Assembly (NCBI RefSeq): GCF_014645315.1
Contig: NZ_BMLQ01000001.1
Location: 57,665 to 121,664, forward strand
Direction: 5' to 3'
Origin: Citricoccus zhacaiensis
Lineage (GTDB): Bacteria; Actinomycetota; Actinomycetes; Actinomycetales; Micrococcaceae
DNA length: 64,000 bases
A model generated the notes under the pieces. It was not told the DNA's origin, did not search any database, and saw only the letters and a program-made list of their open reading frames with translations. Below are positions 29,728-60,081 of the stretch, piece by piece; the stretch's first letter is position 1; each line of letters begins with the position of its first letter. The position numbers and the translations under genes were made by a program.

Positions 29728-30629
29728 TGACGGCAGCAGAGGTCGCCCCCCACGCGGTCACGTCGCCCTCGGCTCAGGCGGCCGTGGTGATCGATTCGGC
29801 CTCCATGACCTATGTGGTGCGGTCGATCCGACCGGCCCCACGCCATGAGACCTTCAGGGCCCGGCTCAGTCGCGCCGGGTCCGGAGTCGAGATCTCCCAT
29901 CTCGAGGCCCTCAAGCCCCTGTCACTGGTGGTGGAGCACGGCGAGAGCGTGGGGGTGATCGGCACCAACGGTTCGGGCAAGTCCACCCTGATGAAACTGG
30001 TCACCGGGCAGCTCGCCCCCACCAGCGGGTCCGTCTACGCCACGGACACACCCATCATGCTGGGGGTCAATGCCGCCCTCGTCCCGCAGATCTCCGGCGA
30101 GGACAACATCATCCTCGGTTGCCTGGCCATGGGCATGTCACGGGCCCAGGCTGATGCGAAGTTCGATTCCATCGTGGAGTTGTCCGGTCTGAAGGACTCA
30201 CTCCATCTGCCGCTCAAGGCCTATTCCTCCGGCATGGCGTCCCGATTGCAATTCGCCATCGCCACCAGCGTGGACCCGGAGATCCTGGTGATCGACGAGG
30301 CGCTGAACACCGGTGACGCCCAGTTCCGCGAACGCACCCGCCAACGCATCAATGTGCTGCGCGAACAGGCCGGTTGCGTCTTCCTCGTCAGCCACTCCCT
30401 CGGCACCATCCGCGACATGTGCACCCGAGCCATCTGGATCGAACGCGGCGAGCTGCTAATGGACGGGACTCCGGAGGAGGTCACCGGCAGGTATCAGGAG
30501 TACGCCGGCCATATGGGCAAGAAGCACGACAAGAAGGCCGCGGATCTCCGGGAGAAGTGCCGCAGCGAACTCGTCCGTACCAAGATCGTCTGGAATGACC
30601 AACGCTCCCCGTCCTCGGCCACCCCGTGA
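29727..30629 (+). CDS. ABC-2 polysaccharide exporter, ATPase subunit (Wzt/TagH-type)
   Basis: Energises export of lipid-linked polysaccharide. The 300-aa protein has Walker A (GTNGSGKST, 79-87), the ABC signature (YSSGM, 166-170) and Walker B (LVIDEAL, about 187-193). It keeps the long N-terminal stretch before Walker A that is typical of Wzt/TagH. There is no C-terminal carbohydrate-binding domain of the long Wzt type, so terminal-sugar recognition by this subunit is unlikely. Its start overlaps the permease stop. Confidence 0.92.
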   Translation: MTAAEVAPHAVTSPSAQAAVVIDSASMTYVVRSIRPAPRHETFRARLSRAGSGVEISHLEALKPLSLVVEHGESVGVIGTNGSGKSTLMKLVTGQLAPTSGSVYATDTPIMLGVNAALVPQISGEDNIILGCLAMGMSRAQADAKFDSIVELSGLKDSLHLPLKAYSSGMASRLQFAIATSVDPEILVIDEALNTGDAQFRERTRQRINVLREQAGCVFLVSHSLGTIRDMCTRAIWIERGELLMDGTPEEVTGRYQEYAGHMGKKHDKKAADLREKCRSELVRTKIVWNDQRSPSSATP

Positions 30630-37573: not shown

Positions 37574-37606
37574 GGGCTCGCCGGTCAGGACTGACCGGCG
37601 AGGCCC
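37574..37606. terminator. bidirectional terminator hairpin between convergent glycosyltransferase genes
   Basis: A 12-bp perfect stem (37577-37588 with 37591-37602) and a 3-bp GGG/CCC extension with one bulged G. It includes the stop codon of the minus-strand gene (37585-37587) and follows the plus-strand gene by 39 nt, so it may end both transcripts. Confidence 0.55.
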
Positions 37607-39690
37607 TCGCGCACCGTTCGGACACGACCGTCCCAGGTCTCGGAAGTCCGGGTATGGTCGAGCCCCGGGGCTCCGGCCGCCACCAGGTGCTCGATTCCGG
37701 CGCGGATCGACTCCGTGGTCCGTTCGCAGTCGATGCCGACACGGTGCTCCCGCACGAACTCAGCGATCCCCATATCCTGATAGCACAGGACCGGGAATCC
37801 CCGCTCGATCATGCTCACGGTCTTGTACGGGAAGCTGAACCGTGCGTAGTCGCTGTCGAGCAGCACGATCCCGAGGCACACCGCCGTTCGTGGCCGGTAC
37901 AGGTCCAGGGGGACGGTGAGGATTCGAACCCGTTCCTGGTCCAGCAGTCCGTGGCGGTCCAGGCAGGCCCGCAGATAGTCGGCCTCCTCGTCCCGGACCA
38001 CGAAGTCGAGGAAGTAACCTGTGCTGCCGTCGCTCACGGCCGCCAGGTAGTCGTCCATGCCGTAGACGCTGTTCATGCCGCCGGCATAGAGCAGGGTCGC
38101 CCCCTCGGCCACGGGGTGGAGCCCCCCGGCGTCCACCACATTGGCCTCAGCAACCGCGGGCGGCAGGGGAACCCAGGTGCGCGCCGTCTCGCCGTGGGCG
38201 GTCAGCAACCGATTGAACCCGTCCCCCGAGGCCTCGCTGGGCGCCAGCAGCATCTCTGCGCGGTCACCGATCTGGCGCAGTTCCTGCAGCCCCCGGGCCG
38301 TCAGTTCGCTACGCATCGCCTCGTCGTCGAGGTACCCGTCCACCTCATCGAGCCAGTGCAGGTCCCGAACGAACCACGCGCACCGACCGCCCGCCGCACG
38401 GATCTCGTCCATGAAGAGCTCAAGATCATCCACGGCGTCCTTGGACGCAATGGGCGAGGTCGAGTTCTCGCCATAGAACACCCCGATCGGGCGGCCTTCG
38501 GCGATGAGACGACGCACGGCCTCAGCCCGGCGGCGGAATCCGCCGCCGCTGGAGTAGAGGCGGATGGCCGCCTCGGGGCGGTCGAAGGCCTCAGCCATGT
38601 TGCGGATCCGCTGGGGCCGGGCCCCGTTGGTGCGGTCCTGCAACGGGGCGACGGAGTAGAAGACGTCCAACGGGCCCGTGCCCTGCAGCGCCGCCAGCTC
38701 CTCGAAGTCTCGGGAGACGGTGCGCTCCATGATCTGGTCCAGGGCCGGGAGCAGGTCCTCGTCATGAGTGACGGTCCGTGAGGACGCCGGGCGCTCGATG
38801 GCAGCACTCGGGGCACCGGCCCCCACCATCCGCTGCAGCTCGGCCGAGATCCGCAACCCGCGGGCCACCTGCGGCAGACCCAGGTCCCGGGCCAGGTTGC
38901 CGTTGCCGATGGTCTCTTCCACGATCACCCGGTCCCACTGGCCGTGGAGACAGCCGAGCACCGCAGCGTAGTGGCGGGAGGTCCCCACCATGACCACGTG
39001 GGAGTATCCCCCCAACCGGGTCTTCAGCGTGGGCCCCAGGAGACGGCCCCGGGAGAGATCGCGCCCACGGTAGAGGGATTCCACCTCCACGGCGACCGTC
39101 TCGGCACCGTCCAGGGCCGCTGAGAGGTTCTCCCGGTACGTCTCCACCCGTCCGGCGTCCATGACATGCGGATGGATCAGGGCGACTCGCGTCCCGGAGT
39201 CGGCCGACAGCACGGGTTGACCGTCCCCAAGCAGCAGCGGGGCCAGGAGATGCGCCACCGTGGAGCCCTTGGCTCCCGCCTTGTCCATCTCCCACTCGTC
39301 GTCCACGAGCACCCGGTCGGTCGCGGTGTTGAGCGCCGCGAAGTCATCAGCCAGAGCCGTACGGGCGGCCGAGAAGTCCAGACTCCCGCGCATCAGCCAC
39401 GGGACGAAGGGAATGACCACGTTCTCGGCCGCGAAGGCCGCCGCTTCCAGCCCGAGGGCGATGACCCGGTCCACGCCCTTCGCCTCGATGAATCGCGTCA
39501 TGTAGGACGTCGCCAGGGCGCTCCGGCGCAGACGATATCCCTTCATCCACAGCGGCACCCGGTCACCGCCACGGAACCACTGGCCATTGACGTCGAAGAC
39601 GTGGATCTCGTGCCCCGCGTTCCGCAGGGACGAGAACACCCGGGCCTCGGCGGGCCCCGGGCTTCGGGTCAGCAGCAATACGGTGCTCAT
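37585..39690 (-). CDS. glycosyltransferase-like protein, two-module
   Basis: A 701-aa protein with an N-terminal Rossmann-like module (VLLLTRSPGPAEARVFSSLRNAGHEIHVFDV) and a second GT-B-like module from about residue 320 (YSVAPLQDRTNGARPQRIRNMAEAF, AWFVRDLHWLDEV, TLLYAGGMNSVYGM, SFPYKTVSMIERGFPVLCYQDMGIAEFV). The last motif resembles the donor site of GT4 enzymes. Substrate unknown. Last gene of the six-gene operon with the uronic-acid enzymes; its ATG overlaps the preceding stop by 4 nt. A terminator overlaps its 3' end. Confidence 0.72.
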   Translation of the reverse strand: MSTVLLLTRSPGPAEARVFSSLRNAGHEIHVFDVNGQWFRGGDRVPLWMKGYRLRRSALATSYMTRFIEAKGVDRVIALGLEAAAFAAENVVIPFVPWLMRGSLDFSAARTALADDFAALNTATDRVLVDDEWEMDKAGAKGSTVAHLLAPLLLGDGQPVLSADSGTRVALIHPHVMDAGRVETYRENLSAALDGAETVAVEVESLYRGRDLSRGRLLGPTLKTRLGGYSHVVMVGTSRHYAAVLGCLHGQWDRVIVEETIGNGNLARDLGLPQVARGLRISAELQRMVGAGAPSAAIERPASSRTVTHDEDLLPALDQIMERTVSRDFEELAALQGTGPLDVFYSVAPLQDRTNGARPQRIRNMAEAFDRPEAAIRLYSSGGGFRRRAEAVRRLIAEGRPIGVFYGENSTSPIASKDAVDDLELFMDEIRAAGGRCAWFVRDLHWLDEVDGYLDDEAMRSELTARGLQELRQIGDRAEMLLAPSEASGDGFNRLLTAHGETARTWVPLPPAVAEANVVDAGGLHPVAEGATLLYAGGMNSVYGMDDYLAAVSDGSTGYFLDFVVRDEEADYLRACLDRHGLLDQERVRILTVPLDLYRPRTAVCLGIVLLDSDYARFSFPYKTVSMIERGFPVLCYQDMGIAEFVREHRVGIDCERTTESIRAGIEHLVAAGAPGLDHTRTSETWDGRVRTVREGLAGQS

Positions 39691-41270
39691 CGGCGGCGGT
39701 TTCCCTTCGTCGGTTCAGTCAGGCCCATCAGCTCCACTTCACGGCGAACGGTCGCGTCGGCTCCGCACTGCCGTTGGGCACGCTCGGAGGCGGCGCGGGA
39801 CATGCGCGTGAAGAGCGCGGGGTGGGACAGGACTCGGTTCAGCCCTCGCACGAGTGCGTCCACCTCTTCGTCGCCACCCAGGATGGCGCAGTCCTCGTCC
39901 ACGAACTCGGGGATGGCGGTCACGGCATTCGTCACCGGGACCAGCCCGGAGGACATCGCCTCGTCCCGCGAGACGCCCTGCGAATCCAGTCGCGACGGCA
40001 CCAGGAAGATGCCGTGGTCCTTGTGGAGCGCGGCCACGTCCTCCTGCGTGACGAACCGGCGCTGGATGGTCACGTTGGCGTGGTGACCGAGGGCGTCCTC
40101 GAACTCGTGGAAGTACTTCCCGTCGCCGATGATCGTCGCCTCGACCCGTGACCAGTGGGGCCCCTTGGCCAGTCGTTGCAGGACCTTGATCGCGATGTCG
40201 TTTCCGTACTTCCGGCTGCCGGCGTTGCGCACCCACAGCAGCTTGAAACGCTGATCCGGATCTTTCGGGACGTAGTCGAACAGTTCCGTGTCGATGAAGT
40301 TGTGAACGATCCTGGACCGGGTGGCCGGGAAGACCAGCCCCATGTCGTCCGTGACAGCACGCCGCCACCACTCGGACACGAAGATGAACGATGCCGGCCC
40401 GTGGGGATGGCGGACCACGTCCCTCCAGAAACGTTGCAGGGCCAGGGTACGGTCGATCCCCCGTTCCAGCTCAGTTCCTTTGCCGAAGTTGAACACACGG
40501 CGGATCCACCGGTCGCACTCGTAGCCGTGCAGGAACACATGGAGGTCAAGGTCAGGAAGGAACGGCACCAGATGGCGCCACATCAGGGCATTCAGGAAGT
40601 GCACGCTGACGCTCCTGTACTCCTGCCGTGATAGCACGGCCGCGATCTCCGGTCCGTGCCCGACCAGCACCCGCACGCCGTCAAAGGTGTAGATACGGCG
40701 TTCCTGGGACGGGGCGGTCAGCACCACGTCCACGTCGATGCCGGAGTCGATGTAGTGCAGGAGGCGTCGGTGGACGAAGCCGTTCCCGTACTCCCGGCCG
40801 ATGTCCGGGTAGTCGTTGGCGATCACCAGGTGCCTCGGGGCACCCGGGCGCAGGACCTGCCCAGACAGGTACTCCTCCGCCAGTTCCTCGGGTGCAGGCC
40901 CCTGGGGTTCCTCGGAGTCGTCCCCGATGCCCAGAGCGCCGGAATACTGGACCTCGTCCTCCCTCAGGGAGTCCAGCTCGTCCAGCGCGGCCGTCAGTCG
41001 CTGCCGCAGCACCGAGTTCTCGAGAGCCAGCATCGGCAGGATCTCATGCTCGCTGTACGTGGTGCCAACGAACTCGGGCGGAACGGACAGCAACTGGCCG
41101 ACATTCTCCTCGCCCCCGCGCGCCTGGCCGGGCAGGACGGCCCGTCGTACTCGGGCAGACACCTCGTCCGGCAACAAGTCCAGCGATCTCCGTGCCGAGG
41201 ACTTCAGCGAGGGGGGAAGGGAGGACCCGACCCGCCGAATCTGTTGCTGGGCGGCGCGCTTGAAGTTCAT
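39687..41270 (-). CDS. glycosyltransferase, GT4-type
   Basis: A 527-aa protein. Residues 1-110 are basic and helical. From about residue 140 it is a GT-B enzyme (LVIANDYPDIGREYGNGFVHRRLLHYI, IFVSEWWRR, LLWVRNAGSRKYGNDIA, LVPSRLDSQGVSRDEAMSSGLVPVTNAV). The Glu in SRDEAMSSG matches the donor-binding E-x7-E region of GT4. The N-terminus shares an LPDxxSxRVRRAV stretch with the 288-aa protein at 47837-48703. Coupled by a 4-nt overlap to the genes on both sides. Confidence 0.85.
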   Translation of the reverse strand: MNFKRAAQQQIRRVGSSLPPSLKSSARRSLDLLPDEVSARVRRAVLPGQARGGEENVGQLLSVPPEFVGTTYSEHEILPMLALENSVLRQRLTAALDELDSLREDEVQYSGALGIGDDSEEPQGPAPEELAEEYLSGQVLRPGAPRHLVIANDYPDIGREYGNGFVHRRLLHYIDSGIDVDVVLTAPSQERRIYTFDGVRVLVGHGPEIAAVLSRQEYRSVSVHFLNALMWRHLVPFLPDLDLHVFLHGYECDRWIRRVFNFGKGTELERGIDRTLALQRFWRDVVRHPHGPASFIFVSEWWRRAVTDDMGLVFPATRSRIVHNFIDTELFDYVPKDPDQRFKLLWVRNAGSRKYGNDIAIKVLQRLAKGPHWSRVEATIIGDGKYFHEFEDALGHHANVTIQRRFVTQEDVAALHKDHGIFLVPSRLDSQGVSRDEAMSSGLVPVTNAVTAIPEFVDEDCAILGGDEEVDALVRGLNRVLSHPALFTRMSRAASERAQRQCGADATVRREVELMGLTEPTKGNRRR

Positions 41271-42268
41271 GAGCCCTCCGAGGCCGTCAGATTCCCGTTC
41301 TGCGGATCCGGCCCTGCGGCGAGCATCTTCTCGGCCACACGGAGGATCTCCAGCCCCTCCTCCAGGGAGACGTGCCGGTTGTCCTCGCCGAGAATCGCGT
41401 CACGGAACGCCTCGTGTTCGGTCCGCAGCGGCTCCTTCTTGGGGAAGGCGTACCTGATGACGTCCCCCTCGGTGACTCCCCGGAAGTTCGCCACGGGCTG
41501 CCATTCCGTGGGGACGCTGCCGTTCTCGTAGAACGTGAGGTCGGCCGTGAGGGTGCTGGCGACCAGGACGCCCTTCTCACCGGTGACCACGGTGGTGCGC
41601 TCCTTCACCGGGGACAGCCAGTTCACGATGTGGTTGGTGATGACACCGTTGTCCAGTTGGCCGATGGCCACCACCATGTCCTCGTGCTCCCGGCCGGCAT
41701 TCCGGGCGGTGTGCGCGGAGACGGAGGCGAAGCGGGAACGGGCCAGCCAGGCCGTCAGATCGATGTCATGCGTCGCCAGGTCCTTGACCACGCCCACGTC
41801 CGCGATCCGGGCGGGGAACGGCCCCTGGCGCCGGGTGGAGATCTGCAGGATGCGGCCCAGCTGGCCGTCGTCGATCCTCCGGCGCAGTTCCTGCAGGGCC
41901 GGGTTGAAGCGTTCGATGTGGCCCACGGCCCCGACCAGCCCGCGCGACGAGAAGGCTTCCACGAGTCGTTCGCCGGCGGCCAGCGAGGCGGCGATCGGCT
42001 TCTCGACCATGATGTGGATGCCGGCCTCGGCCACCGCCAGTCCGACCTCCTCGTGCAGGCCGGTGGGGACGGCACACACGATGGCGTCCACGCCGCAGTC
42101 GATCAGTTGGTCCACGGAGGAGTACACCGGCAACCCGTCGGCCACGCCGTGCGTGTCCCCGATGGCGTCGGCCAGTGCCACCAGCTCGGTGCCCTCGATC
42201 TCGCGCATGACCCGGGCGTGGTGACGACCCATCATGCCCAGTCCGATCAGTCCGGTGCGGATGGTCAT
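41267..42268 (-). CDS. Gfo/Idh/MocA family oxidoreductase, probable UDP-GlcNAcA 3-dehydrogenase
   Basis: A 333-aa NAD(P)-dependent enzyme with an N-terminal GLIGLGMMGRHHARV Rossmann motif, the EKPIAAS catalytic Lys motif (about residue 94) and HDIDL in the C-terminal domain. Proteins of this type (WbpB/WlbA) oxidise C3 of UDP-GlcNAc uronic acid. That role is inferred from the three neighbours, which supply the other steps. Coupled by 4-nt overlaps on both sides. Confidence 0.85.
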   Translation of the reverse strand: MTIRTGLIGLGMMGRHHARVMREIEGTELVALADAIGDTHGVADGLPVYSSVDQLIDCGVDAIVCAVPTGLHEEVGLAVAEAGIHIMVEKPIAASLAAGERLVEAFSSRGLVGAVGHIERFNPALQELRRRIDDGQLGRILQISTRRQGPFPARIADVGVVKDLATHDIDLTAWLARSRFASVSAHTARNAGREHEDMVVAIGQLDNGVITNHIVNWLSPVKERTTVVTGEKGVLVASTLTADLTFYENGSVPTEWQPVANFRGVTEGDVIRYAFPKKEPLRTEHEAFRDAILGEDNRHVSLEEGLEILRVAEKMLAAGPDPQNGNLTASEGS

Positions 42269-43380
42269 GCGTGCGCCTCCCCGACGACGGTGTTCACGGC
42301 CTCGACGATGCGCTCCAGGTCCTCCCGCGTCAGTGAGGGATGGACCGGGAGGGAGAAGACGGTCGCGGCGGCGATCGCGGTGTGGGGCAGGTCTGCCGGC
42401 TGCTGGAACGACGGCAGCTCGTTGGTGGGAATCGGGTAGTAGATCCCGGTGCCGACGCCGAACTCGTTCTTGAGCCGGTCGAGGATCGCACCCCTGGCGC
42501 CGGCCAGGTCCTCGGCCAGCCGCACGGTGTACTGGTGGTAGACGTGCACCGCGCCCTCGCGGACCACCGGGGTGGTCACCCCGCGCAGTCCGGCGTCAAG
42601 GAACGCCGCGTTCTCCTGGCGCTGGCGCGTCCACGCGCCGACCTTCGTCAACTGGACCCGGCCGATCGCGGCGTGGAGGTCCGTCATGCGGTTGTTGAAG
42701 CCCACGACCTCGTTCTCGTACTGGCGTTCCATACCCTGATTGCGCAGCAGGCGGACACCCCGGCCCATGGCCTCGCTGTCCACGGACACCATGCCGCCCT
42801 CGCCGCTGGTCATGTTCTTGGTGGGGTACAGGCTGAACATGCCGAAGGTCCCGAAGGTCCCCACCGGACGTCCGTTCCAAGCCGCCCCGTGGGCCTGTGC
42901 CGCGTCCTCGAAGACCATGAGTCCGTGGGCGTCGGCGATTCGTCCCAATTCGTCCATGGGAGCCGGGTGGCCATAGAGGTGCACCGGCATGATGGCCTTC
43001 GTGCGATCCGTGACCAACGCCTCGACGCTGGCCGGCTCCAGGCAGTAGGTGTCCAGGTCGATGTCCGCGAACACCGGGGTCGCCCCGGTCAGGCGCACGG
43101 CGTTGCCGGTAGCGGCAAAGGTGAAGGCCGGGACGATCACCTCGTCGCCGGGGCCGATGCCGGCGGCCAGCAGGCCGAGGTGGAGTCCCGAGGTACCGGA
43201 GTTCACCGCGACGCAGGGGCGTCCGGCCACCAGGACGTCGGCGAACTCGGCCTCGAAGGCGGCCACCTCCGGTCCCTGGGCCACCATGCCGCTCTGGAGG
43301 ACGCGGTCGACGGCGGCGCGTTCCTCATCGCCGATGATCGGCTTGGCCGGGGGGATGAATGCGGGTGTTGCCTGGGTCAT
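42265..43380 (-). CDS. DegT/DnrJ/EryC1 aminotransferase, probable UDP-3-keto-GlcNAcA aminotransferase
   Basis: PLP enzyme of 371 aa that would aminate the 3-keto uronic acid (WbpE/WlbC type). NSGTSGLHLGLLAAG binds phosphate, FEDAAQAHG carries the Asp for the PLP nitrogen (Asp159), and SLYPTKNMTSGEGG carries the Schiff-base Lys (Lys188). The ATG at 43380 overlaps the acetyltransferase stop by 4 nt and gives the normal family length; upstream frame is shadow. Substrate assignment rests on context. Confidence 0.88.
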   Translation of the reverse strand: MTQATPAFIPPAKPIIGDEERAAVDRVLQSGMVAQGPEVAAFEAEFADVLVAGRPCVAVNSGTSGLHLGLLAAGIGPGDEVIVPAFTFAATGNAVRLTGATPVFADIDLDTYCLEPASVEALVTDRTKAIMPVHLYGHPAPMDELGRIADAHGLMVFEDAAQAHGAAWNGRPVGTFGTFGMFSLYPTKNMTSGEGGMVSVDSEAMGRGVRLLRNQGMERQYENEVVGFNNRMTDLHAAIGRVQLTKVGAWTRQRQENAAFLDAGLRGVTTPVVREGAVHVYHQYTVRLAEDLAGARGAILDRLKNEFGVGTGIYYPIPTNELPSFQQPADLPHTAIAAATVFSLPVHPSLTREDLERIVEAVNTVVGEAHA

Positions 43381-44030
43381 GCTCTCGGTTCCTCTCCGTC
43401 CAGGACGACGAGCGCGTCGCCGTCCTCGCGATACTTCTCGCCCGTGTCCGGGCACACCAGGACGGAGGGTTCCGTCGCCGACGGCTCCAGCTTCCGACCG
43501 GTCTTGCCGACCCATCCGAGGCGGCGGGCCGGAACCCCGGCCACCAGGGCGTGGTCAGGCACGTCACGCGTCACCACCGAGCCGGCGGCCACGAGTGCCC
43601 AGGCCCCGATCGTCAACGGCGCCACGCACACGGCCCGGGCCCCGATGGCCGCACCACGGCCGATGGACACCCCGACGGCATCCCAGTCGGAGGCGGATTT
43701 CTGGGTGCCGTCCGGGTTGATGGCCCGCGGGTAGGTGTCGTTCGTCAGGACCACGGCCGGACCGATGAACACCCCGTCGTCGAGGTGAGCCGGTTCATAG
43801 ACGAGGGCGTGGTTCTGGATCTTGCAGTTCTCGCCCACCGTCACGCCGGTGCCGATGTATGCGCCCCGGCCGACCACGCAGTTCGGGCCCAGCAGCGCCT
43901 TCTCGCGGACCTGTGCCAGGTGCCAGATCTTCGTGCCGGCCCCGATGACCGCGTCTGCGGAGACATCTGCGCCCGGGGCGACGCTGTACGGCAACTCTTC
44001 AGGGGTGGTGCGGTCGGTCATCTCAGGCAT
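43377..44030 (-). CDS. left-handed beta-helix N-acetyltransferase (WbpD/WlbB type)
   Basis: A 217-aa hexapeptide-repeat acyltransferase. Helix coils are seen as ADAVIGAGTKIWHLAQVREKA and GRGAYIGTGVTVGENCKIQNHALVYEP; the catalytic residue region DDGVFIGPAVVLTNDTYPRA and GAGSVVTRDVPDHALVAGVPAR match WbpD/WlbB. It would acetylate the 3-amino group of UDP-GlcNAc(3N)A. The last 40 residues (KTGRKLEPSATEPSVLVCPDTGEKYR) are extra. The ATG at 44030 overlaps the dehydrogenase by 8 nt; 44021 is an alternative. Confidence 0.88.
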   Translation of the reverse strand: MPEMTDRTTPEELPYSVAPGADVSADAVIGAGTKIWHLAQVREKALLGPNCVVGRGAYIGTGVTVGENCKIQNHALVYEPAHLDDGVFIGPAVVLTNDTYPRAINPDGTQKSASDWDAVGVSIGRGAAIGARAVCVAPLTIGAWALVAAGSVVTRDVPDHALVAGVPARRLGWVGKTGRKLEPSATEPSVLVCPDTGEKYREDGDALVVLDGEEPRA

Positions 44031-45336
44031 CGGTCCCGGTCTCGGTGGGCAGACCGATGACGCGGCGGGCCACCGAGGTCCAGTTGGCCGGATCGGTCAT
44101 GTTGCGGCCGTCCACCAGGGTGGCGATCCCCGGGAGCTGGTCCGCGGAAAGCTCCCTGTACTCCGCGTGGTCGGTCTGGATGATCGCCGCGTCCACTCGA
44201 TCGCCCCACTGGTACGGGGAGAATCCGAGGCGAGTGAGCTCCTCGTCCGTGTACAGCGGATCGTGGACGCTGACCTGCGCTCCGGCCTCCTCCAGCGAAC
44301 GGACGGTGGCGAAGACGCCGGAGAAGGCCGTCTCCTTGACGCCGCCGCGGTAGGCCGCACCGAGCACGAGGACCTTCTGGCCGCTCAGCGATCCATGGGC
44401 GCCGGCCAGCATGCCGACGGCGTAGGCGGGCATTCCGGCGTTGACGGCGCGGGCGGTACGGACGATGTCCGCCGCCGGATCGTTCCAGAGGTACAGCCGC
44501 GGGTACACGGGGATGCAGTGTCCGCCCACGGCGATCCCGGGACGGTGGATGTGGCTGTACGGCTGCGAGTTGGAGGCCTCGATGACACGGTAGATGTCGA
44601 TGCCGTTGTCCCCGGCGTAGCGGGCGAACTCGTTGGCCAGGCCGATGTTGACGTCGCGGTACGTGGTCTCGGCCAGCTTGGCCATCTCAGCGGCTTCAGC
44701 ACTGCCCAGGTCCCACACGCCGTTCGGGCGGTCCAGGTCCTCGCGGACGTCGAAGTCGAGCACCGACTCGTAGAAGTCCCGGGCGCGCTCGGCGCCCTGG
44801 GCGTCCAGGCCGCCGATGAGCTTGGGGTACTTGCGCAGGTCAGCGAAGACGCGCCCGGTCAGGACGCGCTCCGGGGAGAAGACCACGTGGAAGTCCTCGC
44901 CCGAGGTCAGGCCGGATCCCTCTTCGAGCATCGGCTGCCACCGGGTCCGCGTGGTGCCCACCGGCAGGGTCGTCTCGTAGGAGACCAGGGTGCCGGGGGT
45001 CAGGTTGGCCGCCAGATCGCGCGTGGCGGCATCCATCCAGCCGAAGTCCGGCCGAGCCTCCTCGTCCACGAACAGCGGGACCACCAGGACCACGGCGTCC
45101 GCGCCGGGGATGGCGTCTGCATAGTCGGTGGTGGCGCGCAGCGTGCCGTTGGCCACCGCCTCCGAGAGCTTCTCCTGCAGCTGGTCCTCGCCGGGGAAGG
45201 GCTCCTGGCCCGCATTGACCAGCTCAACGACCTTCTCGTTGACGTCGACGCCGACGACCTGGTGACCCTTGCTGGCGAACTGGACAGCCAGCGGCAGCCC
45301 GATCTTTCCCAACGCCACGACAGCGATCTTGAGCAC
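44023..45336 (-). CDS. nucleotide-sugar 6-dehydrogenase, probable UDP-GlcNAc dehydrogenase (WbpA type)
   Basis: A 437-aa NAD-dependent enzyme that oxidises C6 of a UDP-sugar to a carboxylate. The N-terminal VVALGKIGLPLA is a modified dinucleotide-binding motif. Lys220 (AEMAKLAE) and the catalytic Cys274 (GGHCIPVYP) are present. It differs clearly from the WecC at 56166-57425 and heads an operon with the 3-dehydrogenase, aminotransferase and acetyltransferase, so UDP-GlcNAc is the likely substrate. GTG start with AAGGATGG upstream. Confidence 0.87.
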   Translation of the reverse strand: MLKIAVVALGKIGLPLAVQFASKGHQVVGVDVNEKVVELVNAGQEPFPGEDQLQEKLSEAVANGTLRATTDYADAIPGADAVVLVVPLFVDEEARPDFGWMDAATRDLAANLTPGTLVSYETTLPVGTTRTRWQPMLEEGSGLTSGEDFHVVFSPERVLTGRVFADLRKYPKLIGGLDAQGAERARDFYESVLDFDVREDLDRPNGVWDLGSAEAAEMAKLAETTYRDVNIGLANEFARYAGDNGIDIYRVIEASNSQPYSHIHRPGIAVGGHCIPVYPRLYLWNDPAADIVRTARAVNAGMPAYAVGMLAGAHGSLSGQKVLVLGAAYRGGVKETAFSGVFATVRSLEEAGAQVSVHDPLYTDEELTRLGFSPYQWGDRVDAAIIQTDHAEYRELSADQLPGIATLVDGRNMTDPANWTSVARRVIGLPTETGTDA

Positions 45337-45506: not shown

Positions 45507-47840
45507 TCACAGTCCGGAGAGGAGCACCTGTTGCCAGGCTGCAGTGACGGTTCTCTCATCGAACCCGGCCACCCGCTCGCGTGCCGTCCGCTGCCGAGCC
45601 GCCCGGGCGTCGTCGTCCGCGTCCGTCTCCAGGATCAGCCGCGCAGCGGCGGCCGTGTCCTGCACCACGAACTCGTCGCCGAAGATGTCACGGGCGCCGG
45701 GCCGGTCCCACAGCACCGGCAGCGCCCCGGAGGCCATGCCCTCGGCCGGTGCCAGGTGGAAGCTCTCCACGGTGCTCGGCGAGAGCACCCAGCCGATCTT
45801 GCGCAGCCATCCGGCCATGTCCGCTCCGAAGGGCTCGAACGCCACGGCGTGGCGTACCGGATCCGCGCCGAGCCGGGCAAAGAGGTCCATGTAGGCCTCG
45901 CGCTGGACCGGCTTGCGCCATTCGTGCGGGTACTCCCACGGCATCCGCCCGCGCAGGTGCAGGGTGTACCGGGGGTCGGTGCGATGGAGCTCACGCAGCA
46001 GGTCCACGGCGCGGTCCAGGCGTTTGCGCAGGGGCACGATGCCGACCAGTCCGAGGCGGTGCTGGCGCCCCGGCAGACCCGGACGGTCCAGGTCCGCCAG
46101 GCTCACGGCATTGGGGATGACCGAGACACGTTCAGCAGCAAGGCCCAGGTGCTCGACCACCAGGTCCCGGTAGTGCTCCGAGACCGTGACGAACCGGTCC
46201 ACGGCGTCCGAGGCCAGCTCGGAGAGCCACCGTCCGCGCAGCTCGAACATGTGGAGCCGGACCACCAGTCGCTGTCCCGCTTTCTTGTGCCGCGCGTACC
46301 AGACGGCGTTGGGCCCGGCCCATTCGCACATCACGACGTCGGCCCAGTCCACGAGGTCCCGTGAGGCCGCCTCGTCGTGGTGGTGCAGGGAGGACCAGTG
46401 GTCCAGCCGCAGGTCGACGTCCGGATGGTCGGTGAGCAGATCCACCAGCTCGCCCGCGAACTTCAGGTCATGGCCGGCGACGACGACGCGCACCGGCCGG
46501 GAGCGCCGCGACTGCGCCGGTCCGGGCAGCCCGATCCGGGCCAGCCACGTCTTCAGGGTCTCGGCACGCGCGGTCATCCGAAAGGGCTCGGCCACGGCCA
46601 GGACCCGGGCGGACAACTGCGGCAGCTGGTCCCGGACCGCGGCGATGGTCCGGGCGATCTGTCGCGGGCCGTCCGCCGCACCGTCCACGAAGAGGGGGTA
46701 GTCGACTCCGAGCAGCTCCTCGTGGGCCGCCGTGCGATTCACCAGGGGTGGGACGCCGAGTGCGCAACTCTCCAACACCTTGGTGGACAGTTCCAGGCTC
46801 AGGTCCAGTTCCTCGTCACGCCACCCGAGGGTGATGTCAGCCCCGGCGGCGGCGTCCAGCGCCGCGGTGCGGTCCAACGCCCCCAGCCAGGCCACGTCCG
46901 GGCGGGGCGCGTCCATGACGGCACGCATGTGCTCCGCCCAGTCGGGGTGCTCCGGATCATGCTGGACCTTGTCCCCCACCATGGTCAGCTCAGCGGCCAC
47001 TCCACCGGCCCGCAGGCCCTCCACGATCTCCGGCATCTGATCCGTGCGCCAGCGGCGGGCGAACTTGCCCGTGTAGACCAGGCGCACGGGCTCGCCTGTC
47101 CCCGGCGCCGCGGGCGGGGCCGTTGAGGCGACGGGGCCAGCTGACGCAGCGGGGGTCACTGCAGCAACGCGGGTGGTCGAGGGGCCGATGGCGTCCGGCA
47201 CCATCGGCGAGAGCACCACGGTCTGTCCGGCCGCGGCCGGGACCATGGCCTCCAGCACGGCGCGGGCCTGCTCGGTCTGGGCCAGCATGAGGCGACTGGC
47301 CGCGGCAATCTCGCCGAGCTGCTGCCATCGCTCGGCGCCGGCGCCGGCGCCGGCATCGGCATCGGCATCGGCATCGGACGCATCCTGCGGGTATCCGAAC
47401 TCCGTCACGTAGGACCAGAGTCGTCCGGCGAAGGCCCCCCGACGGGCGATCTGGCGGCAGATGCGGATGCCCCGGACCATGACGACGTCATAGGGATCCT
47501 GACCGTCCAGCTTCTGGAGGGCATCGGCGGCCGGCACCGGCTCCAGGGCACGGCGTCCCTGCGGCGGATGAGCCGGCCACACGGTGACCCCTGGCATGTT
47601 GCGGAGCTCTCCGGACAACAGGGTGCGGTCCTCAACGGCCTTGAGCTGGACGTCGACCTGGGCACCGGCCAGGGACCAGGTCCGGGCCATGGAGGTCAGC
47701 CAGACGGCGGAACCGTCGATGATGTTCAGGTCCACGTCTCCGTAGAGCAGCACGCGGACCCGCCGCTGTGGAGGCAGGGTGCCGGACGGGTTCGCCGGCT
47801 CGCTGCCGGCCTCGGTTCCGGCGGTCTCGGTGCCGTTCAT
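45507..47840 (-). CDS. glycosyltransferase, two-module, with hexanucleotide repeat
   Basis: A 777-aa protein with two GT-B-like modules. The first (about 30-420) has VRVLLYGDVDLNIIDGSAVWLTS and LVYTGKFARRWR...LSLELSTKVLESCALGVPPLVNRTAAHEELLG. The second (about 445-775) has VVVAGHDLKFAGELVDLL, PNAVSLADL, RLGLVGIVPLRKRL and FEPFGADMAGW...VESFH. The second half resembles the protein at 30595. A (DA)4(GA)3 stretch near residue 165 comes from 6-bp DNA repeats. The ATG at 47840 overlaps the preceding stop by 4 nt. Confidence 0.82.
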   Translation of the reverse strand: MNGTETAGTEAGSEPANPSGTLPPQRRVRVLLYGDVDLNIIDGSAVWLTSMARTWSLAGAQVDVQLKAVEDRTLLSGELRNMPGVTVWPAHPPQGRRALEPVPAADALQKLDGQDPYDVVMVRGIRICRQIARRGAFAGRLWSYVTEFGYPQDASDADADADAGAGAGAERWQQLGEIAAASRLMLAQTEQARAVLEAMVPAAAGQTVVLSPMVPDAIGPSTTRVAAVTPAASAGPVASTAPPAAPGTGEPVRLVYTGKFARRWRTDQMPEIVEGLRAGGVAAELTMVGDKVQHDPEHPDWAEHMRAVMDAPRPDVAWLGALDRTAALDAAAGADITLGWRDEELDLSLELSTKVLESCALGVPPLVNRTAAHEELLGVDYPLFVDGAADGPRQIARTIAAVRDQLPQLSARVLAVAEPFRMTARAETLKTWLARIGLPGPAQSRRSRPVRVVVAGHDLKFAGELVDLLTDHPDVDLRLDHWSSLHHHDEAASRDLVDWADVVMCEWAGPNAVWYARHKKAGQRLVVRLHMFELRGRWLSELASDAVDRFVTVSEHYRDLVVEHLGLAAERVSVIPNAVSLADLDRPGLPGRQHRLGLVGIVPLRKRLDRAVDLLRELHRTDPRYTLHLRGRMPWEYPHEWRKPVQREAYMDLFARLGADPVRHAVAFEPFGADMAGWLRKIGWVLSPSTVESFHLAPAEGMASGALPVLWDRPGARDIFGDEFVVQDTAAAARLILETDADDDARAARQRTARERVAGFDERTVTAAWQQVLLSGL
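47334..47375. repeat. in-frame hexanucleotide repeats
   Basis: Three copies of GGCGCC (47334-47351) followed by four copies of GGCATC (47352-47375), all in frame within the 777-aa glycosyltransferase gene and encoding alternating Gly-Ala and Asp-Ala. Changes in copy number would not shift the frame. Confidence 0.8.
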
Positions 47841-48703
47841 CGGCGGGCCTCCTGGGATCCGTTGGTCAGTGCATCCGATGCCGTCCGGGGTGCGGGCTGG
47901 GCTACGGGCTGAGGGGCTGCGGGCTCGTGACCGGACGGCGGCTGGAGGGGGTCCAGGTCCCGCAGCAGGTCCACCACCCCCGTGGGAGCGTCGCCCGGGT
48001 CCTCCGTGATGTGGTGCTGCGGGGGTACCGCACCGGGGCGGATGGTCAGGACGCCCCCGTCCCGGCGCAGGGCCACGGCTCCGAGCCGGAACCGGTCCGG
48101 GCCACGGTCCACGAGCCACACGCTCACGCCTTGAGAGCGTGCGTGAGACAGGGCGTCCTGCAGCTCCAGGTACAGCGCCACCCCCTCGGCATCCAGTGCA
48201 CCGGCCCAGGTCCCGGCCACCCCGGCCAGGTCGATCACGGCCACCTCGCTCAGATCGATGGTCGCGCGGGCCGTCCCCGGCAGCAGCGGGTGGACCTCAT
48301 GGCCCGCCGACTCCAGCCCTGCCACGAGGTCGGCAGCGGCGAGGACGGCGATGCGGCGCCCGCCGCCTGCCGGACGCGGTGCCCGTCCGCCCAGCAGCGC
48401 ACGGTTCAGCCGGTGGGCGGACTCCGGGTCCCGCCCGGTGACGGCGGCAGCCCTGCCGGTGGCCACGGTGGCCAGGGAGGCGGCAGGGCCCCGGCCGGGA
48501 GCCAGTCCGAGCGGGTCACCGGCGGGCGCGGCGCCCCGGGGTGCACGGGCGGGGGTGCTGCGGCCCACGGCCCGGCGGACGCGCCGGGACAGCGAGTCCG
48601 GGAGGTACTCGTCCACCGTGCGGAGGGTGCCCTTCAGCGCCCGGCGAAGGGGAGTCTTCACCCGGGCCGGGAGGGCTCGACGTGCTCTGCTGTATACGCT
48701 CAT
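47837..48703 (-). CDS. hypothetical protein in polysaccharide cluster
   Basis: A 288-aa protein I cannot assign. The first 50 residues are basic (RALPARVKTPLRRALKGTLRTVDEYLPDSLSRRVRRAV). The middle has a Rossmann-like RRIAVLAAADLVAGLESAGHEVHPLLPG and a DLSEVAVIDLAGVAG strand, like the first half of a GT-B fold without a recognisable donor site. The tail is Pro/Ala-rich. The ATG at 48703 has AGGAAAGCAGG upstream. It overlaps the next glycosyltransferase by 4 nt, so it may be a partner subunit of it. Confidence 0.65.
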   Translation of the reverse strand: MSVYSRARRALPARVKTPLRRALKGTLRTVDEYLPDSLSRRVRRAVGRSTPARAPRGAAPAGDPLGLAPGRGPAASLATVATGRAAAVTGRDPESAHRLNRALLGGRAPRPAGGGRRIAVLAAADLVAGLESAGHEVHPLLPGTARATIDLSEVAVIDLAGVAGTWAGALDAEGVALYLELQDALSHARSQGVSVWLVDRGPDRFRLGAVALRRDGGVLTIRPGAVPPQHHITEDPGDAPTGVVDLLRDLDPLQPPSGHEPAAPQPVAQPAPRTASDALTNGSQEARR

Positions 48704-48794: not shown

Positions 48795-50576
48795 CTACGC
48801 CGGAGCGACTCCGAGTCCGCGGTACATCGTCAGGTAGCGCTCGGCGTTGCCGCTCCAGGTTCGCGTCTGAAGCGCCCAGCGTCGTCCGGCCTGTCCGAGG
48901 TGCCGAGCGTGCCCGGGATCCTCGAGCAGGCCCTGGAGGGCGGCGGTCAGCGAATCGAGGTCCTCGGGCCGGAACAGCACTCCGGTCACGCCGTCCTGGA
49001 CGAGCTCAGCCAGCGCGGGCAGGTCCGAGGCCACCACCGGGCGGCCCACGGCCGAGGCCTCCACGGATTTCATGGGCGTGACCGTACGGGTGACGGACAG
49101 GTCCTTGCGGGGCACGATGAACACGTCCAGAGCGGCGTGGTTCATCAGCGCCTCGGCGCGCGGAACCCGCCCGGGGAAGTCACACCGGTCCTCGATGCCC
49201 AGCTCCCGGGCGAGCACCCTCAGTCCGGGCAGGGCCACCCCGTCTCCGGCGATACGCAGCCGGAGGCCGGGGTGCCGGGGCGCGAGGGCCGCCGTCGCCC
49301 GCACCAGCAGGTCCAGTCCCTCGTAGTCGACGATGCTGGAGACCGTGCCGATGATGGTGTGCCCGATCTCCAGGCCGAGAGCGGCCCGTGCCTCGTCCCG
49401 GGTGGGCGGCTCCTGCAGGAACTGGTCCCCCACGGCGTTCGGGCAGATGATCATCCGCTCCGGGTCGACTCCGGCTGCCACCAGCGCCGAACGCATGCCC
49501 TCACCGAGGGTGACCACCCGGTCAGCGCTGCGGGCCACCTCCGCCTCCCGTGCCACGAACTCGCGGTAGCGCTGGGAGGAGCGGGCGTCCTCCCCCCGGG
49601 TGGCGGCCCAGGTGTCCGCCAGCTGGCCCCGGACCTCATAGACCCACGGGATTCCGGTCGCTTCGGCGACCGCCCTGGTCACCAGTCCGTTCGTGAAGTG
49701 CGTGGTGGTGTGGAGGAGGGAGGGACGGTGGCGGCGCACGTGGTCCTCCAGGAGCTCCGCATGCTGGTCCAGTCGGTCCTGCAGTCCCTGATCCATCCGG
49801 AACGGCAGCAGCCGGGCATAGTCCACCGTCTCCACGGTGTCCAGGTCGGCGGCCCAGGGGACGCCCACCTGGACGGGGTAGCCGGGGCGGGTCACGGCCG
49901 AGACCTCAAGACCGGCCTGCTGCAGCGAACGGAGGATCGAATGACTGCGTTGTGCGTAGCCACTGGAGGTGTGCGGCAGGGAGTTGGTCAGGATGTGGAG
50001 CACCCGGCCGGGGACCGGGTCGATCGGCCCGCGTCCAGAGGGCCGGGGCCCGTGGCCGGTGAACCCGGACAGTTCCCCGGCGGCCCGCTTCGCCAACGAC
50101 CGGTTGCGCGGATGCTGGGCGGCCAGGGCGGCCGCACCATCCAGGTCTCCGCGGTAGGCGGCCACCCGCGAGGCGGCAGCGAACCACGGGGCCCGGCGGT
50201 CCGCGGGATCCACCTCCTCCAGCAGTGCCTCTGCCCTGGCCTCGTCCGCCAAGCCGAGGGCGGCGTCCGCCCGGTAGGGAACGGCGCGGACCGACGTTCC
50301 GCGGCGGGGCCGCTCCAGCGCCCGCCAGGCCGCGGACCGGTCTCCACGCATCTCGTGGCCGATGGCCTCCAGGACGTCCGCGCCCAGGCGCCCCGAGGCG
50401 ATGAATCCCGAGGCCAGCGGCCGGGACACGGCCGCTGGCAGGCGGCGGGAGACCTGCAGGGCCAGCAGGACGGGATCGTCGACGATGTGTTCACGCACCG
50501 TCTGGGCGGTCAGGGCCAGGTTCCGCAGCCACGGGGTCTTCCCGGCGCGGGGGCCAGGGGTCTCTGAGCGGGTCAC
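48795..50576 (-). CDS. glycosyltransferase, GT4-type, with helical N-terminal domain
   Basis: A 593-aa protein. Residues 20-190 are helical with repeat-like Ala-rich segments (AWRALERP..., AEALLEEVDPADRR). Residues 205-590 are a GT4 enzyme: HILTNSLPHTSSGYAQRSHSIL, GRVPRAEALMNHAALDVFIVPRK and TPMKSVEASAVGRPVVASDLPALAELV (E-x7-E donor site). The start is the GTG at 50576 overlapping the preceding stop as GTGA. It ends 91 nt before the hypothetical gene at 48703. Confidence 0.85.
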   Translation of the reverse strand: MTRSETPGPRAGKTPWLRNLALTAQTVREHIVDDPVLLALQVSRRLPAAVSRPLASGFIASGRLGADVLEAIGHEMRGDRSAAWRALERPRRGTSVRAVPYRADAALGLADEARAEALLEEVDPADRRAPWFAAASRVAAYRGDLDGAAALAAQHPRNRSLAKRAAGELSGFTGHGPRPSGRGPIDPVPGRVLHILTNSLPHTSSGYAQRSHSILRSLQQAGLEVSAVTRPGYPVQVGVPWAADLDTVETVDYARLLPFRMDQGLQDRLDQHAELLEDHVRRHRPSLLHTTTHFTNGLVTRAVAEATGIPWVYEVRGQLADTWAATRGEDARSSQRYREFVAREAEVARSADRVVTLGEGMRSALVAAGVDPERMIICPNAVGDQFLQEPPTRDEARAALGLEIGHTIIGTVSSIVDYEGLDLLVRATAALAPRHPGLRLRIAGDGVALPGLRVLARELGIEDRCDFPGRVPRAEALMNHAALDVFIVPRKDLSVTRTVTPMKSVEASAVGRPVVASDLPALAELVQDGVTGVLFRPEDLDSLTAALQGLLEDPGHARHLGQAGRRWALQTRTWSGNAERYLTMYRGLGVAPA

Positions 50577-53224
50577 GGGTGTCGCCTTTCCGGGGGTCCG
50601 GGATGGTGCTGAAGTCGAGGTGGTCCGGCTGGGGCCACCGGCAGTGGTAACAGATGGATGGCCAAGCCCAGAGTCCCGGTCGCGGACGCCCGCCGCGTCC
50701 CACGACGGACCCGCATCCGCAGGCGCACCCGGGTCACCCGATGCAGCCGATGGGCCGGGTCGCCGAGCAGTTCCACGGACACCGGCTCCCGCGCGGGTTC
50801 CGGCGCCCCCGTGGCGATGAGGTCCACGGCCTGCGTGGATCCCGCTGGGAACCGCGTCTCGGCCAGTACCCGGTCGCCCTGCAGGACGCGCATCCCGCGG
50901 ACCAGGTCGGCCCCGGTGAAGGAGAGTCTCAGGGCCAGGTACTCGCCGGCGGCCCACGCGAAGGCGGCCGGACCCAGGGGGTAACGGTGGTCCAGGAGCA
51001 CCATCCGGTCCTCATCGGCGGCCAGGGGGGACGGCAGGTCTGCTGGATCCCCCGGGCTCCCCGGATTCCCTGGGCCTCCCGGATCTGCTGAGCCATCGAT
51101 CCGACCGGCCGCCCGGTGGTCATCGGCCCGGCGGAACCAGTCGTCGAGTTGCCGGCGTGCGTCCAGCAGTCGGCCGCGTTCTTCCGCCTCGGACACCCTT
51201 GACGCCTCAGACGTCCCGGACAGACGATCCAGCTTCAAGGCCGCTTCCTCCGAGGAGTCGACCTTCATCAGCCAGGCACCCCACAGGTCGTCGAACCGGT
51301 TGGCCGGGTGCCGGGACGTCAGGACCACAGGCCCGGCGCACACCGCATACGGGGTCACGGGAGCATGCGAGCGCTGCCGGCCTGATCCGGTCGGCTGGAG
51401 GTAGACCACCGTGCCGGACAGCGCCGCGGCGAGTTCATCCGGGCCGGCATCCTCGAGGTCACTGGCAGCCAGGTCACGCGTGGCCACGTCACGGGTGGCC
51501 AGGTCTCGCGCTGGACCTGAAGACCTTTGGGCAAGGGAGTCGGCCACCGGATCGGCAGAGGCCCCCGCTCCGGTCCCGGCGTCGGAGTCCTCGGAGCGGA
51601 TCACCGTAAGTCCGGTCCAGGCGGCGCTGACGTCATGGGGCTGAGCAGTTCTTCGTTGCACCGCCGCCAGGAAAGCGGATTCCACCACCGCCGGCGTGTG
51701 CAGGGCATTCGTCGCCGGCCCGAGCAGGTTCACCCGGTCCACCGGGGCTGGCCCGATGCGGACCACGAGGTCGTAGCGCGCGGCGTCCGCGGGGCTGAAG
51801 GTCTCCCCCGAGAGCAGGCACACGGTGGACAGCCCCGCGTCCCGGGCGGCGTCCGCCTCCCGCGCCGTGAGCCGGAGGCCGTCGGCGAGCACCAGGTAGC
51901 GGGCCGGTCCTCCTTCGAGGGAGCCCAGCAGCGATCGGAGCCCGTCCTCGTCGTCGTCGGGAATCCACACCGCCGCCAACCGGCCCCAACCCTCCAGCTC
52001 CCGCCGAATCACGTCCGTGGCATCGAAGCGCCGTGGCGAGTATCGGTACGCCAAGACCACATCACCGGCGCTCTCCGCCGCGAGCGGGGCGTCCCGCGTG
52101 TCCGCGGCGTCTCTGATCTCCGGGGTGACTGCGGAAACTGGGGTGACTGCGGTGACGGGGGCATCCGGGACGGTGCGGCCGTCGAACTGGAGGAACCAGA
52201 CCGTCCGCTCGGCCGCATCCAGCGAGCGCCAGCTGTCATCCTGCAGCAGCGCCTCGAGGGCCTGGACTCGGGCCGTGGCGCTGAACGAGCGGTCGAAGCG
52301 GTCGAGGGTCCGGGCCGCCAATGCGGGCAAGCCGCCGGAGTCCAGCATGTCCGTGATCCGCCGATCGGCCTCCTCGATGCCCCCGCAGACCTCCATCTCC
52401 GGGAACGCCGGGCTGCGGGGCGCCCCCGGCACGACGCTGACCACGGGCAGCCCCATGGCGGCGTACTGAACCACCCGGCTGGGCAGATCGAAATGACCGA
52501 GATCCTCGAGGCCGGGGAACCAGGTGGGCTGCCCGCGGTAGGCGCTGAAGAACTGCGGGATGTTGAGTGCGACCCGGGCCCGGCCACCTGCCTCGGCCAC
52601 CTCGGCATCGGAATCCAGGAACCCGCCGCCCATCCCGGCGGGGTCTGCCTCCATCCGGCCGTACACCCTCACGGAGTGGCCCATGGCAGCGAGCTGTTCG
52701 TACCGTGCCCGCCGCACCGGACCGACCATGTTCCCGAGGAACATCACGGTGGACTCGGGCTCGTGCTGCCCGTACACGGCGGGGAACGCGGTGTGGTCCG
52801 TCCAGAACGGGAAGTTCACTCCGGTCGGCCGCCCGAACCGCTGTTCGTAGAACCGCAGGACGGACTCGTTTCCGCAGTGCAGGATGAGGTCGTAGAGGTC
52901 GATGACCGGGCCGTAGGAGTCCTTGAAGAGCACCGGGTCGTCGGACAGCCAGGCGGCCACCACGGCGCCCGTCCCGCGCAGGGCCTGCAGGACGGGGTAA
53001 GGAGCCGAGGCCGGGCGGAACACCAGCACCAGATCCGGCCGGAAGCCCGTGATCACGTCCAGGTGGGAGGCGATGGAGGGCAGCAGCTCGTCCGTGTCCC
53101 GGAACAGGTACCCGGAGCCGAAGCGTCCGGTGTTGTAGACCTCGTGGCCGCGGGACCGCAGCGCGCGCTCCAGGGACGAGGCGACGTGCGTCTCCTGGAT
53201 GCCGTCATACAGCACCACCCTCAT
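50573..53224 (-). CDS. large glycosyltransferase-like protein (CgeB/GT1-like) with C-terminal extension
   Basis: An 883-aa protein. Residues 1-345 resemble the CgeB-like glycosyl-transferase group (MRVVLYDGIQETHVASSLERALRSRGHEV, AWLSDDPVLF, FLGNMVGPVRRARY, FDLPSRVVQYAAMGLPVVSVVPG). A second module follows (about 385-690; ARYLVLADGLRLT...). It ends in a beta-rich domain (about 740-860) resembling a carbohydrate-binding or accessory fold. Linkers are low-complexity (TAVTPVSAVTPE; ATRDVATRDLA; PGGPGNPGSPGDP). Overlaps its neighbours by 4 nt on both sides. Confidence 0.72.
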   Translation of the reverse strand: MRVVLYDGIQETHVASSLERALRSRGHEVYNTGRFGSGYLFRDTDELLPSIASHLDVITGFRPDLVLVFRPASAPYPVLQALRGTGAVVAAWLSDDPVLFKDSYGPVIDLYDLILHCGNESVLRFYEQRFGRPTGVNFPFWTDHTAFPAVYGQHEPESTVMFLGNMVGPVRRARYEQLAAMGHSVRVYGRMEADPAGMGGGFLDSDAEVAEAGGRARVALNIPQFFSAYRGQPTWFPGLEDLGHFDLPSRVVQYAAMGLPVVSVVPGAPRSPAFPEMEVCGGIEEADRRITDMLDSGGLPALAARTLDRFDRSFSATARVQALEALLQDDSWRSLDAAERTVWFLQFDGRTVPDAPVTAVTPVSAVTPEIRDAADTRDAPLAAESAGDVVLAYRYSPRRFDATDVIRRELEGWGRLAAVWIPDDDEDGLRSLLGSLEGGPARYLVLADGLRLTAREADAARDAGLSTVCLLSGETFSPADAARYDLVVRIGPAPVDRVNLLGPATNALHTPAVVESAFLAAVQRRTAQPHDVSAAWTGLTVIRSEDSDAGTGAGASADPVADSLAQRSSGPARDLATRDVATRDLAASDLEDAGPDELAAALSGTVVYLQPTGSGRQRSHAPVTPYAVCAGPVVLTSRHPANRFDDLWGAWLMKVDSSEEAALKLDRLSGTSEASRVSEAEERGRLLDARRQLDDWFRRADDHRAAGRIDGSADPGGPGNPGSPGDPADLPSPLAADEDRMVLLDHRYPLGPAAFAWAAGEYLALRLSFTGADLVRGMRVLQGDRVLAETRFPAGSTQAVDLIATGAPEPAREPVSVELLGDPAHRLHRVTRVRLRMRVRRGTRRASATGTLGLAIHLLPLPVAPAGPPRLQHHPGPPERRHP

Positions 53225-60046: not shown

Positions 60047-60081
60047 AAGGGGTTCCCATCGACACGTCAAAGTTCCACATC

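Follow-up and report, generated by a model that had tools for sequence, protein, structure and literature searches.

Which activated sugar is made by the products of four overlapping genes in Citricoccus zhacaiensis, in what order would their enzymes act, and where would the product go? The genes lie on the minus strand at 41267-45336 of a 64,000-nucleotide (nt) stretch, here called the window, which covers positions 57,665-121,664 of contig NZ_BMLQ01000001.1 (assembly GCF_014645315.1). They encode a UDP-sugar 6-dehydrogenase (DH), an N-acetyltransferase (NAT), a pyridoxal phosphate (PLP) aminotransferase (AT) and a Gfo/Idh/MocA oxidoreductase (GFO), the last three being termed the trio. Gene content, enzyme families and co-occurrence were observed directly; taken together, they make it probable that the module builds UDP-GlcNAc3NAcA, the 2,3-diacetamido uronic acid of gluco form, by a route that modifies C3 first, has DH oxidise C6 last and uses the gluco form. 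We hold the parts of this explanation with differing confidence: the identity of the product is very likely, its use in a wall polymer likely, the gluco form nearly as likely, and the placing of C3 before C6 a little better than even.

An overlapping run of four genes

The four genes are as follows.

44023..45336, minus strand: DH, putative UDP-sugar C6 dehydrogenase of the diacetamido pathway (P0004, 437 residues, GTG start; PF03721/PF00984/PF03720)
43377..44030, minus strand: NAT, left-handed beta-helix (hexapeptide) N-acetyltransferase, WlbB/WbpD-like (P0003, 217 residues; match to 3mqg)
42265..43380, minus strand: AT, PLP aminotransferase of the DegT/DnrJ/EryC1 family (PF01041, 401.6 bits)
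41267..42268, minus strand: GFO, putative Gfo/Idh/MocA 3-dehydrogenase, nearest to UDP-GlcNAc 3-dehydrogenases (P0001, 333 residues; NF040723, GnnA 7bvj)

A preliminary description of this DNA had seen a 6-dehydrogenase, an acetyltransferase, an aminotransferase and a Gfo/Idh protein in one overlapping run, and the frames bear this out: DH and NAT overlap by 8 nt, AT and GFO by 4 nt, and NAT and AT by 4 nt when AT starts at the internal ATG at 43380, where we set its start (the longest open reading frame reaches 43515 and would overlap NAT by 139 nt). Third-position guanine-cytosine content of the four frames is 0.86-0.91, and the run extends beyond 41267 through two further 4-nt overlaps, into 39687-41270 and then 37585-39690. 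Pfam and NCBIfam models place the proteins in the UDP-sugar dehydrogenase, hexapeptide transferase, DegT/DnrJ/EryC1 and Gfo/Idh/MocA classes. Furthermore, the order DH-NAT-AT-GFO is found again in other genera, so the arrangement is more than chance. The residues presumed to be catalytic in these families do not vary among the aligned sequences: Cys274 and Lys220 of DH (n = 50), the PLP lysine of the PTKN motif of AT (n = 72), and E89-K90, D163 and H167 of GFO (n = 71).

Relation to the Wbp and Wlb enzymes

The same description had likened the module to WbpA/B/D/E, and comparison with Wbp-type proteins gave a divided answer. Identities were measured against a DH-GFO-NAT-AT set on a Diaphorobacter plasmid (L221), taken as a stand-in for the Wbp set, and amount to 29% for DH, 25% for GFO, 39% for AT and 34% (over 201 columns) for NAT. 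The best solved structure for NAT is 3mqg, which we take to be Bordetella WlbB (131.8 bits over residues 17-201, the C-terminal CPxTGxxY tail included), and NAT thus falls with the WbpD/WlbB-type enzymes, as had been expected. AT matches WbpE with 222.7 bits, with 7b0d (264.8 bits) and several others scoring above it.

GFO and DH stand further away. The best NCBIfam model for GFO is NF040723, an archaeal UDP-GlcNAc 3-dehydrogenase (221.3 bits, under the 450 cut-off), on which the Diaphorobacter GFO scores 99.6 bits. A profile built from 21 homologs matches 7bvj, titled UDP-N-acetylglucosamine 3-dehydrogenase GnnA, with 104.6 bits versus 86.1 bits for WlbA (3q2k), and GFO has GHIERFNPA instead of a KQNR..N stretch; its predicted structural model has a mean predicted local distance difference test (pLDDT) score of 89.7. 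By sequence, then, GFO appears to lie nearer GnnA than the WbpB/WlbA branch. DH fails the WecC model (200.5 bits, cut-off 459) and lies outside the TviB branch represented in the Diaphorobacter set, scoring 126.9 bits on NF011729 (cut-off 592) versus 584.5 bits for the Diaphorobacter DH. Among equivalog models, DH of the window scores highest on that of an archaeal UDP-ManNAc dehydrogenase (271 bits, under the 750 cut-off), and the solved structure that it matches best, 4r16, bears the name UDP-N-acetyl-D-mannosaminuronic acid dehydrogenase.

On these identities and model scores the chemistry would be that of the Pseudomonas and Bordetella Wbp/Wlb systems, with four reaction types in common, a similar acetyltransferase and an apparently similar aminotransferase, but DH and GFO seem to come from other branches; the module is not the WbpA/B/D/E set itself. 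The sugar class proposed for it, a diacetamido uronic acid, is supported as a prediction. GnnA, the nearest solved sequence to GFO, serves lipid A together with GnnB; unlike that system, GFO of the window is accompanied by an acetyltransferase and a 6-dehydrogenase.

Nested distribution and the order of reactions

On the explanation we favour, GFO would oxidise C3 of UDP-GlcNAc, AT would aminate the oxidised C3, NAT would acetylate the amino product to give UDP-GlcNAc3NAc, and the dedicated DH would then oxidise C6 to yield UDP-GlcNAc3NAcA, to be used without 2-epimerisation. The distribution of the genes was examined in 149 genomes of the family (identifiers in G, with G000 the organism's own genome; L denotes loci or stretches, and C1 and C5 contigs) at thresholds of E<=1e-20 for NAT, E<=1e-50 for GFO, E<=1e-60 for DH and at least 58% identity for a WbpI-type epimerase. 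The counts are strictly nested (NAT in 60 genomes, GFO in 47, DH in 40, the epimerase in 18): all 40 DH genomes contain GFO and NAT, and all 18 epimerase genomes contain DH. The inclusion of DH in GFO genomes has a hypergeometric probability of 2e-29, uncorrected for kinship. Such a series is the pattern expected of a linear route whose late steps are dispensable, and a C3-first order, the reverse of that in Pseudomonas, agrees with the GnnA-like character of GFO.

DH is absent at these thresholds from seven of the 47 GFO genomes. Five of the seven hold other UDP-sugar dehydrogenases, and GFO of one of these (G104) is in two pieces. The remaining two, G010 and G117 (completeness 99% and 100%), keep NAT-AT-GFO as an intact overlapping run and lack any PF03721 protein above the threshold, G010 giving only sub-threshold matches and G117 none. 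These two are the hard cases for the proposed order, and both are draft genomes.

Among named organisms we considered the nearest 80 of 574 confirmed loci. Within the stretches examined, 61 hold the trio, 41 all four genes and 23 a WbpI-type epimerase. Whole-genome searches covered 15 of 20 loci with the trio alone; 12 of these genomes have such a DH elsewhere (67-76%), and none was found in the genomes of L103, L128 and L131. Together with the nesting and with a true WecC elsewhere in the window, this ties DH to the diacetamido pathway rather than to N-acetylmannosaminuronic acid (ManNAcA).

The principal alternative concerns order. As in Pseudomonas, DH could act first to form UDP-GlcNAcA, with GFO, AT and NAT following on the uronic acid; the product would be unchanged, and we regard this as quite possible without being what we would expect. 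The P. aeruginosa order is described as C6 oxidation first in the available text of PMC10622841, and the Streptomyces authors, in the available text of PMC13274773, call their own pathway similar to it; within the overlapping run DH comes first, and 40 of the 47 family genomes with GFO also have DH. Against it stand the greater nearness of GFO to GnnA than to WlbA and the seven genomes with GFO and no DH, including the two that have no PF03721 member over the cut-off.

The remaining alternatives would change the sugar. P0004 might be a second UDP-ManNAc dehydrogenase of a teichuronic acid pathway, leaving the trio to make a non-uronic 2,3-diacetamido sugar, as its archaeal equivalog match and 4r16 would suggest; yet it falls under the cut-offs of both that model and WecC, a protein that passes the WecC model is already in the cluster, and P0004 never occurs without GFO and NAT in the 149 genomes, so that we consider this improbable. 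Even harder to credit is a pathway to a 4-amino-6-deoxy sugar: DegT aminotransferases of 4-amino sugars do score well (PseC, 262 bits), but all the 4-amino models listed lie far under their own cut-offs, no 4,6-dehydratase was found among the cluster proteins scanned, and the partner acetyltransferase is WlbB-like.

Acetyltransferases of the NAT family also occur apart from the module. Thirteen family genomes have one without a GFO partner at the cut-off (G006, G017, G039, G046, G050, G051, G094, G102, G106, G111, G121, G123 and G141), and these enzymes perhaps use another acceptor sugar. In a sample of 296 genomes of the phylum, the NAT profile matches 33 (E<=1e-30). A contig filed under an Acidobacteria metagenome-assembled genome (L122) carries actinobacterial-type NAT (67%), AT (70%) and GFO (61%) and is possibly mis-binned.

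Gluco or manno form

The preliminary description saw no WbpI-type epimerase, considered the gluco form more likely, and allowed that WecB might act on the product. The first observation is correct within the window, but the genome does have such an enzyme, on contig C5 (L069:2061-3143, equal to G000:C5:320560-321642; 339 bits to the Thermus structure 8sxv). The available text of PMC10622841 gives Ala18, Tyr96 and Trp307 as the specificity positions of the Thermus UDP-GlcNAc3NAcA epimerase; the C5 enzyme keeps the Tyr and Trp and has Leu for Ala18, as does every WbpI-type homolog aligned. An action of WecB on the diacetamido product is unlikely, since its specificity positions in the alignment are Met/Gln/Arg, the UDP-GlcNAc type, and it has a WecC partner in the window.

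Clusters of the window's type, marked by the 701-residue protein P0006, occur in 10 of the 149 family genomes and in Gulosibacter (L072, the sole example among the 80 named loci), 11 genomes in all. A WbpI-type epimerase is absent from 10 of these 11, including Gulosibacter and G034, whose module is 96-97% identical to that of the window; C. zhacaiensis alone has one. Within the family this means one of 10 cluster-type genomes versus 17 of the 30 other DH genomes (Fisher 0.013, uncorrected for kinship); among the other named genomes that hold all four genes, the search found the epimerase in nine of 15. The available text of PMC13274773 reports a GlcNAc3NAcA homopolymer in S. antibioticus, whose cluster is without two predicted epimerase genes including utrH, and ManNAc3NAcA in S. 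griseus, which has utrH. The absence of the epimerase from nearly all cluster-type genomes and the pattern of the Streptomyces polymers make the gluco form the better guess, in keeping with the earlier expectation.

The alternative, that the C5 epimerase converts the window operon's product and so makes UDP-ManNAc3NAcA the final sugar, is rather unlikely, although the genome could make both forms. The C5 locus holds, with the epimerase upstream, a partial second set, in which AT and GFO paralogs (70% and 62%) are open and the DH paralog (L069:6063-7126 to ~7360, equal to G000:C5:324562-325625 and beyond) is disrupted at more than one point and contains a 7-bp repeat, CTGGGAC, in 6.7 copies (L069:6680-6726). 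The only two acetyltransferases of the NAT kind found in the genome are those of the window and of C1:520258, with none on C5, so the C5 locus, its DH broken, would need the window's enzymes. This argument, the 339-bit match to 8sxv and the Tyr and Trp at two of the three specificity positions favour the manno form; the Leu at the third and the 10 cluster-type genomes without the epimerase, G034 with its closely similar module among them, speak against it. Adjoining the C5 WbpI-type gene is a CapG-like 2-epimerase (L069:592-1806; 399 bits to 7ya2), which presumably points to an N-acetylfucosamine pathway at that locus. The second NAT-family acetyltransferase (L048:15154-15882; G000:C1:520258-520869) is 64% identical to P0003 and stands in another gene neighbourhood, with no DH or GFO match in the stretch examined around it.

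The surrounding wall-polymer cluster

The module sits inside a wall-polymer cluster with WecB, WecC, an exporter, glycosyltransferases, a pyruvyltransferase and a LytR-CpsA-Psr (LCP) protein. Its other genes are listed here, the fractions giving presence in fetched stretches of the nine other family genomes of the cluster type.

27470..28624, minus strand: WecB, UDP-GlcNAc 2-epimerase (TIGR00236, 471 bits, cut-off 210; 7/9)
28843..30629, plus strand: ABC-2 type exporter, permease 28843-29727 and ATPase 29634-30629 (PF01061, PF00005; 9/9)
37585..39690, minus strand: P0006, 701-residue marker of the cluster type (no family match)
39687..41270, minus strand: glycosyltransferase with group 1 domain, candidate transferase for the sugar (PF00534/PF13692; 9/9)
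45507..48119, minus strand: glycosyltransferase upstream of the module (PF13692/PF13439; 7/9)
48795..50957, minus strand: glycosyltransferase, group 1 (PF00534, 94.3 bits; 9/9)
54809..56116, plus strand: polysaccharide pyruvyltransferase (PF04230; 2/9, G034 and G044)
56166..57425, minus strand: WecC, UDP-ManNAc 6-dehydrogenase (NF008286, 575 bits, cut-off 459; 8/9, G048 the exception)
57533..58777, minus strand: glycosyltransferase (PF13579; 7/9)
58781..60070, minus strand: LCP protein, candidate polymer-peptidoglycan ligase (PF03816, 136.6 bits; 9/9)

WecB matches a UDP-GlcNAc 2-epimerase structure with 394.8 bits versus 146.5 bits for the UDP-GlcNAc3NAcA epimerase 8sxv, and from their sequences WecB and WecC should give UDP-ManNAcA. 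The glycosyltransferase at 39687-41270 directly follows GFO in eight of the nine other genomes; in G049 its homolog adjoins DH on the opposite strand. P0006, tightly linked to the cluster type, matches no Pfam or NCBIfam family. Its predicted model (mean pLDDT 87.6) retrieved GT-B-type glycosyltransferases or related enzymes among the Foldseek matches listed (8-16% identity, query TM-score <=0.37), so that it is probably GT-B-like, the fold call being weak. The pyruvyltransferase, found in so few of the other genomes, is probably a variable decoration.

Known relatives and the case of Micrococcus luteus

The novelty implied by the preliminary description is reduced by the Streptomyces utr loci, for which teichuronic acid-like polymers of diacetamido uronic acids were published in 2025 (PMC13274773). 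By the description in the available text of that paper, these loci place a dehydrogenase, aminotransferase, oxidase and acetyltransferase set in an actinobacterial wall cluster, as does the window, and exist with and without a 2-epimerase gene, as among the window's relatives. In that text the utr genes are divided between two divergent operons and accompanied by enzymes predicted to transfer onto ribitol teichoic acid, whereas those of the window form a single overlapping run, set in an exporter/LCP cluster that also encodes WecB and WecC. A Streptomyces locus in our set (L114) shares 65% identity in NAT, 70% in DH and 56% in GFO with the window, with a WbpI-type epimerase at 56%. Furthermore, 2,3-diamino-2,3-dideoxyglucuronic acid was reported from the wall of Propionibacterium acnes in 1983, according to a title cited in PMC3848858. 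In Methanococcus, GlcNAc3NAcA stands beside a ManNAcA-type sugar in one N-glycan, an archaeal protein glycan and not a wall polymer, and the acetyltransferase MMP0350 is required (PMC2952790, available text). The UDP-GlcNAc3NAcA pathway is thus known and common in actinobacteria, and the parts worth following are the reverse order and a prediction for Micrococcus luteus.

G124, a genome resembling M. luteus NCTC 2665, holds the window's cluster type, module included, at C1 ~961000-985000 (L207-L209); some genes of the window, the pyruvyltransferase among them, are missing from it. Identities to the window are 79% for WecB, 77% for WecC, 82% for DH, 76% for AT, 73% for GFO, 72% for NAT and 52% for LCP. 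Although the cluster type is shared, the teichuronic acid of M. luteus consists, in the available text of PMC3005890, of glucose and ManNAcA only, with GlcNAc and phosphate in the linker. That polymer needs nothing from the module, which leaves a missed linkage-region or minor residue, a missed second polymer, or a silent module. A search of open-access literature, with subscription journals mostly outside it, returned no report that M. luteus contains a diacetamido uronic acid; PMC13274773 covers both subjects and, in its available text, mentions M. luteus only in connection with how its teichuronic acid is linked.

We hypothesize, tentatively and at rather less than even confidence, that actinobacteria follow a reverse route in which a GnnA-type enzyme, AT and NAT act first to give UDP-GlcNAc3NAc, used as such in some lineages, with DH and then a WbpI-type epimerase as optional additions. 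In the Micrococcus-type cluster the sugar would join ManNAcA, so that the wall of M. luteus, a textbook case for teichuronic acid, should hold a missed uronic acid, to be sought for example within the linkage region or a second polymer.

The nested gene pattern offers a direct test of the reaction order. On Streptomyces, diacetamido uronic acid polymers are described as receptors of antibacterial umbrella toxins (PMC13274773, available text), and which actinobacteria make such sugars, and by which route, therefore bears on surface recognition. If true, the M. luteus prediction would reopen a matter regarded as settled, namely what its wall polymer is made of.

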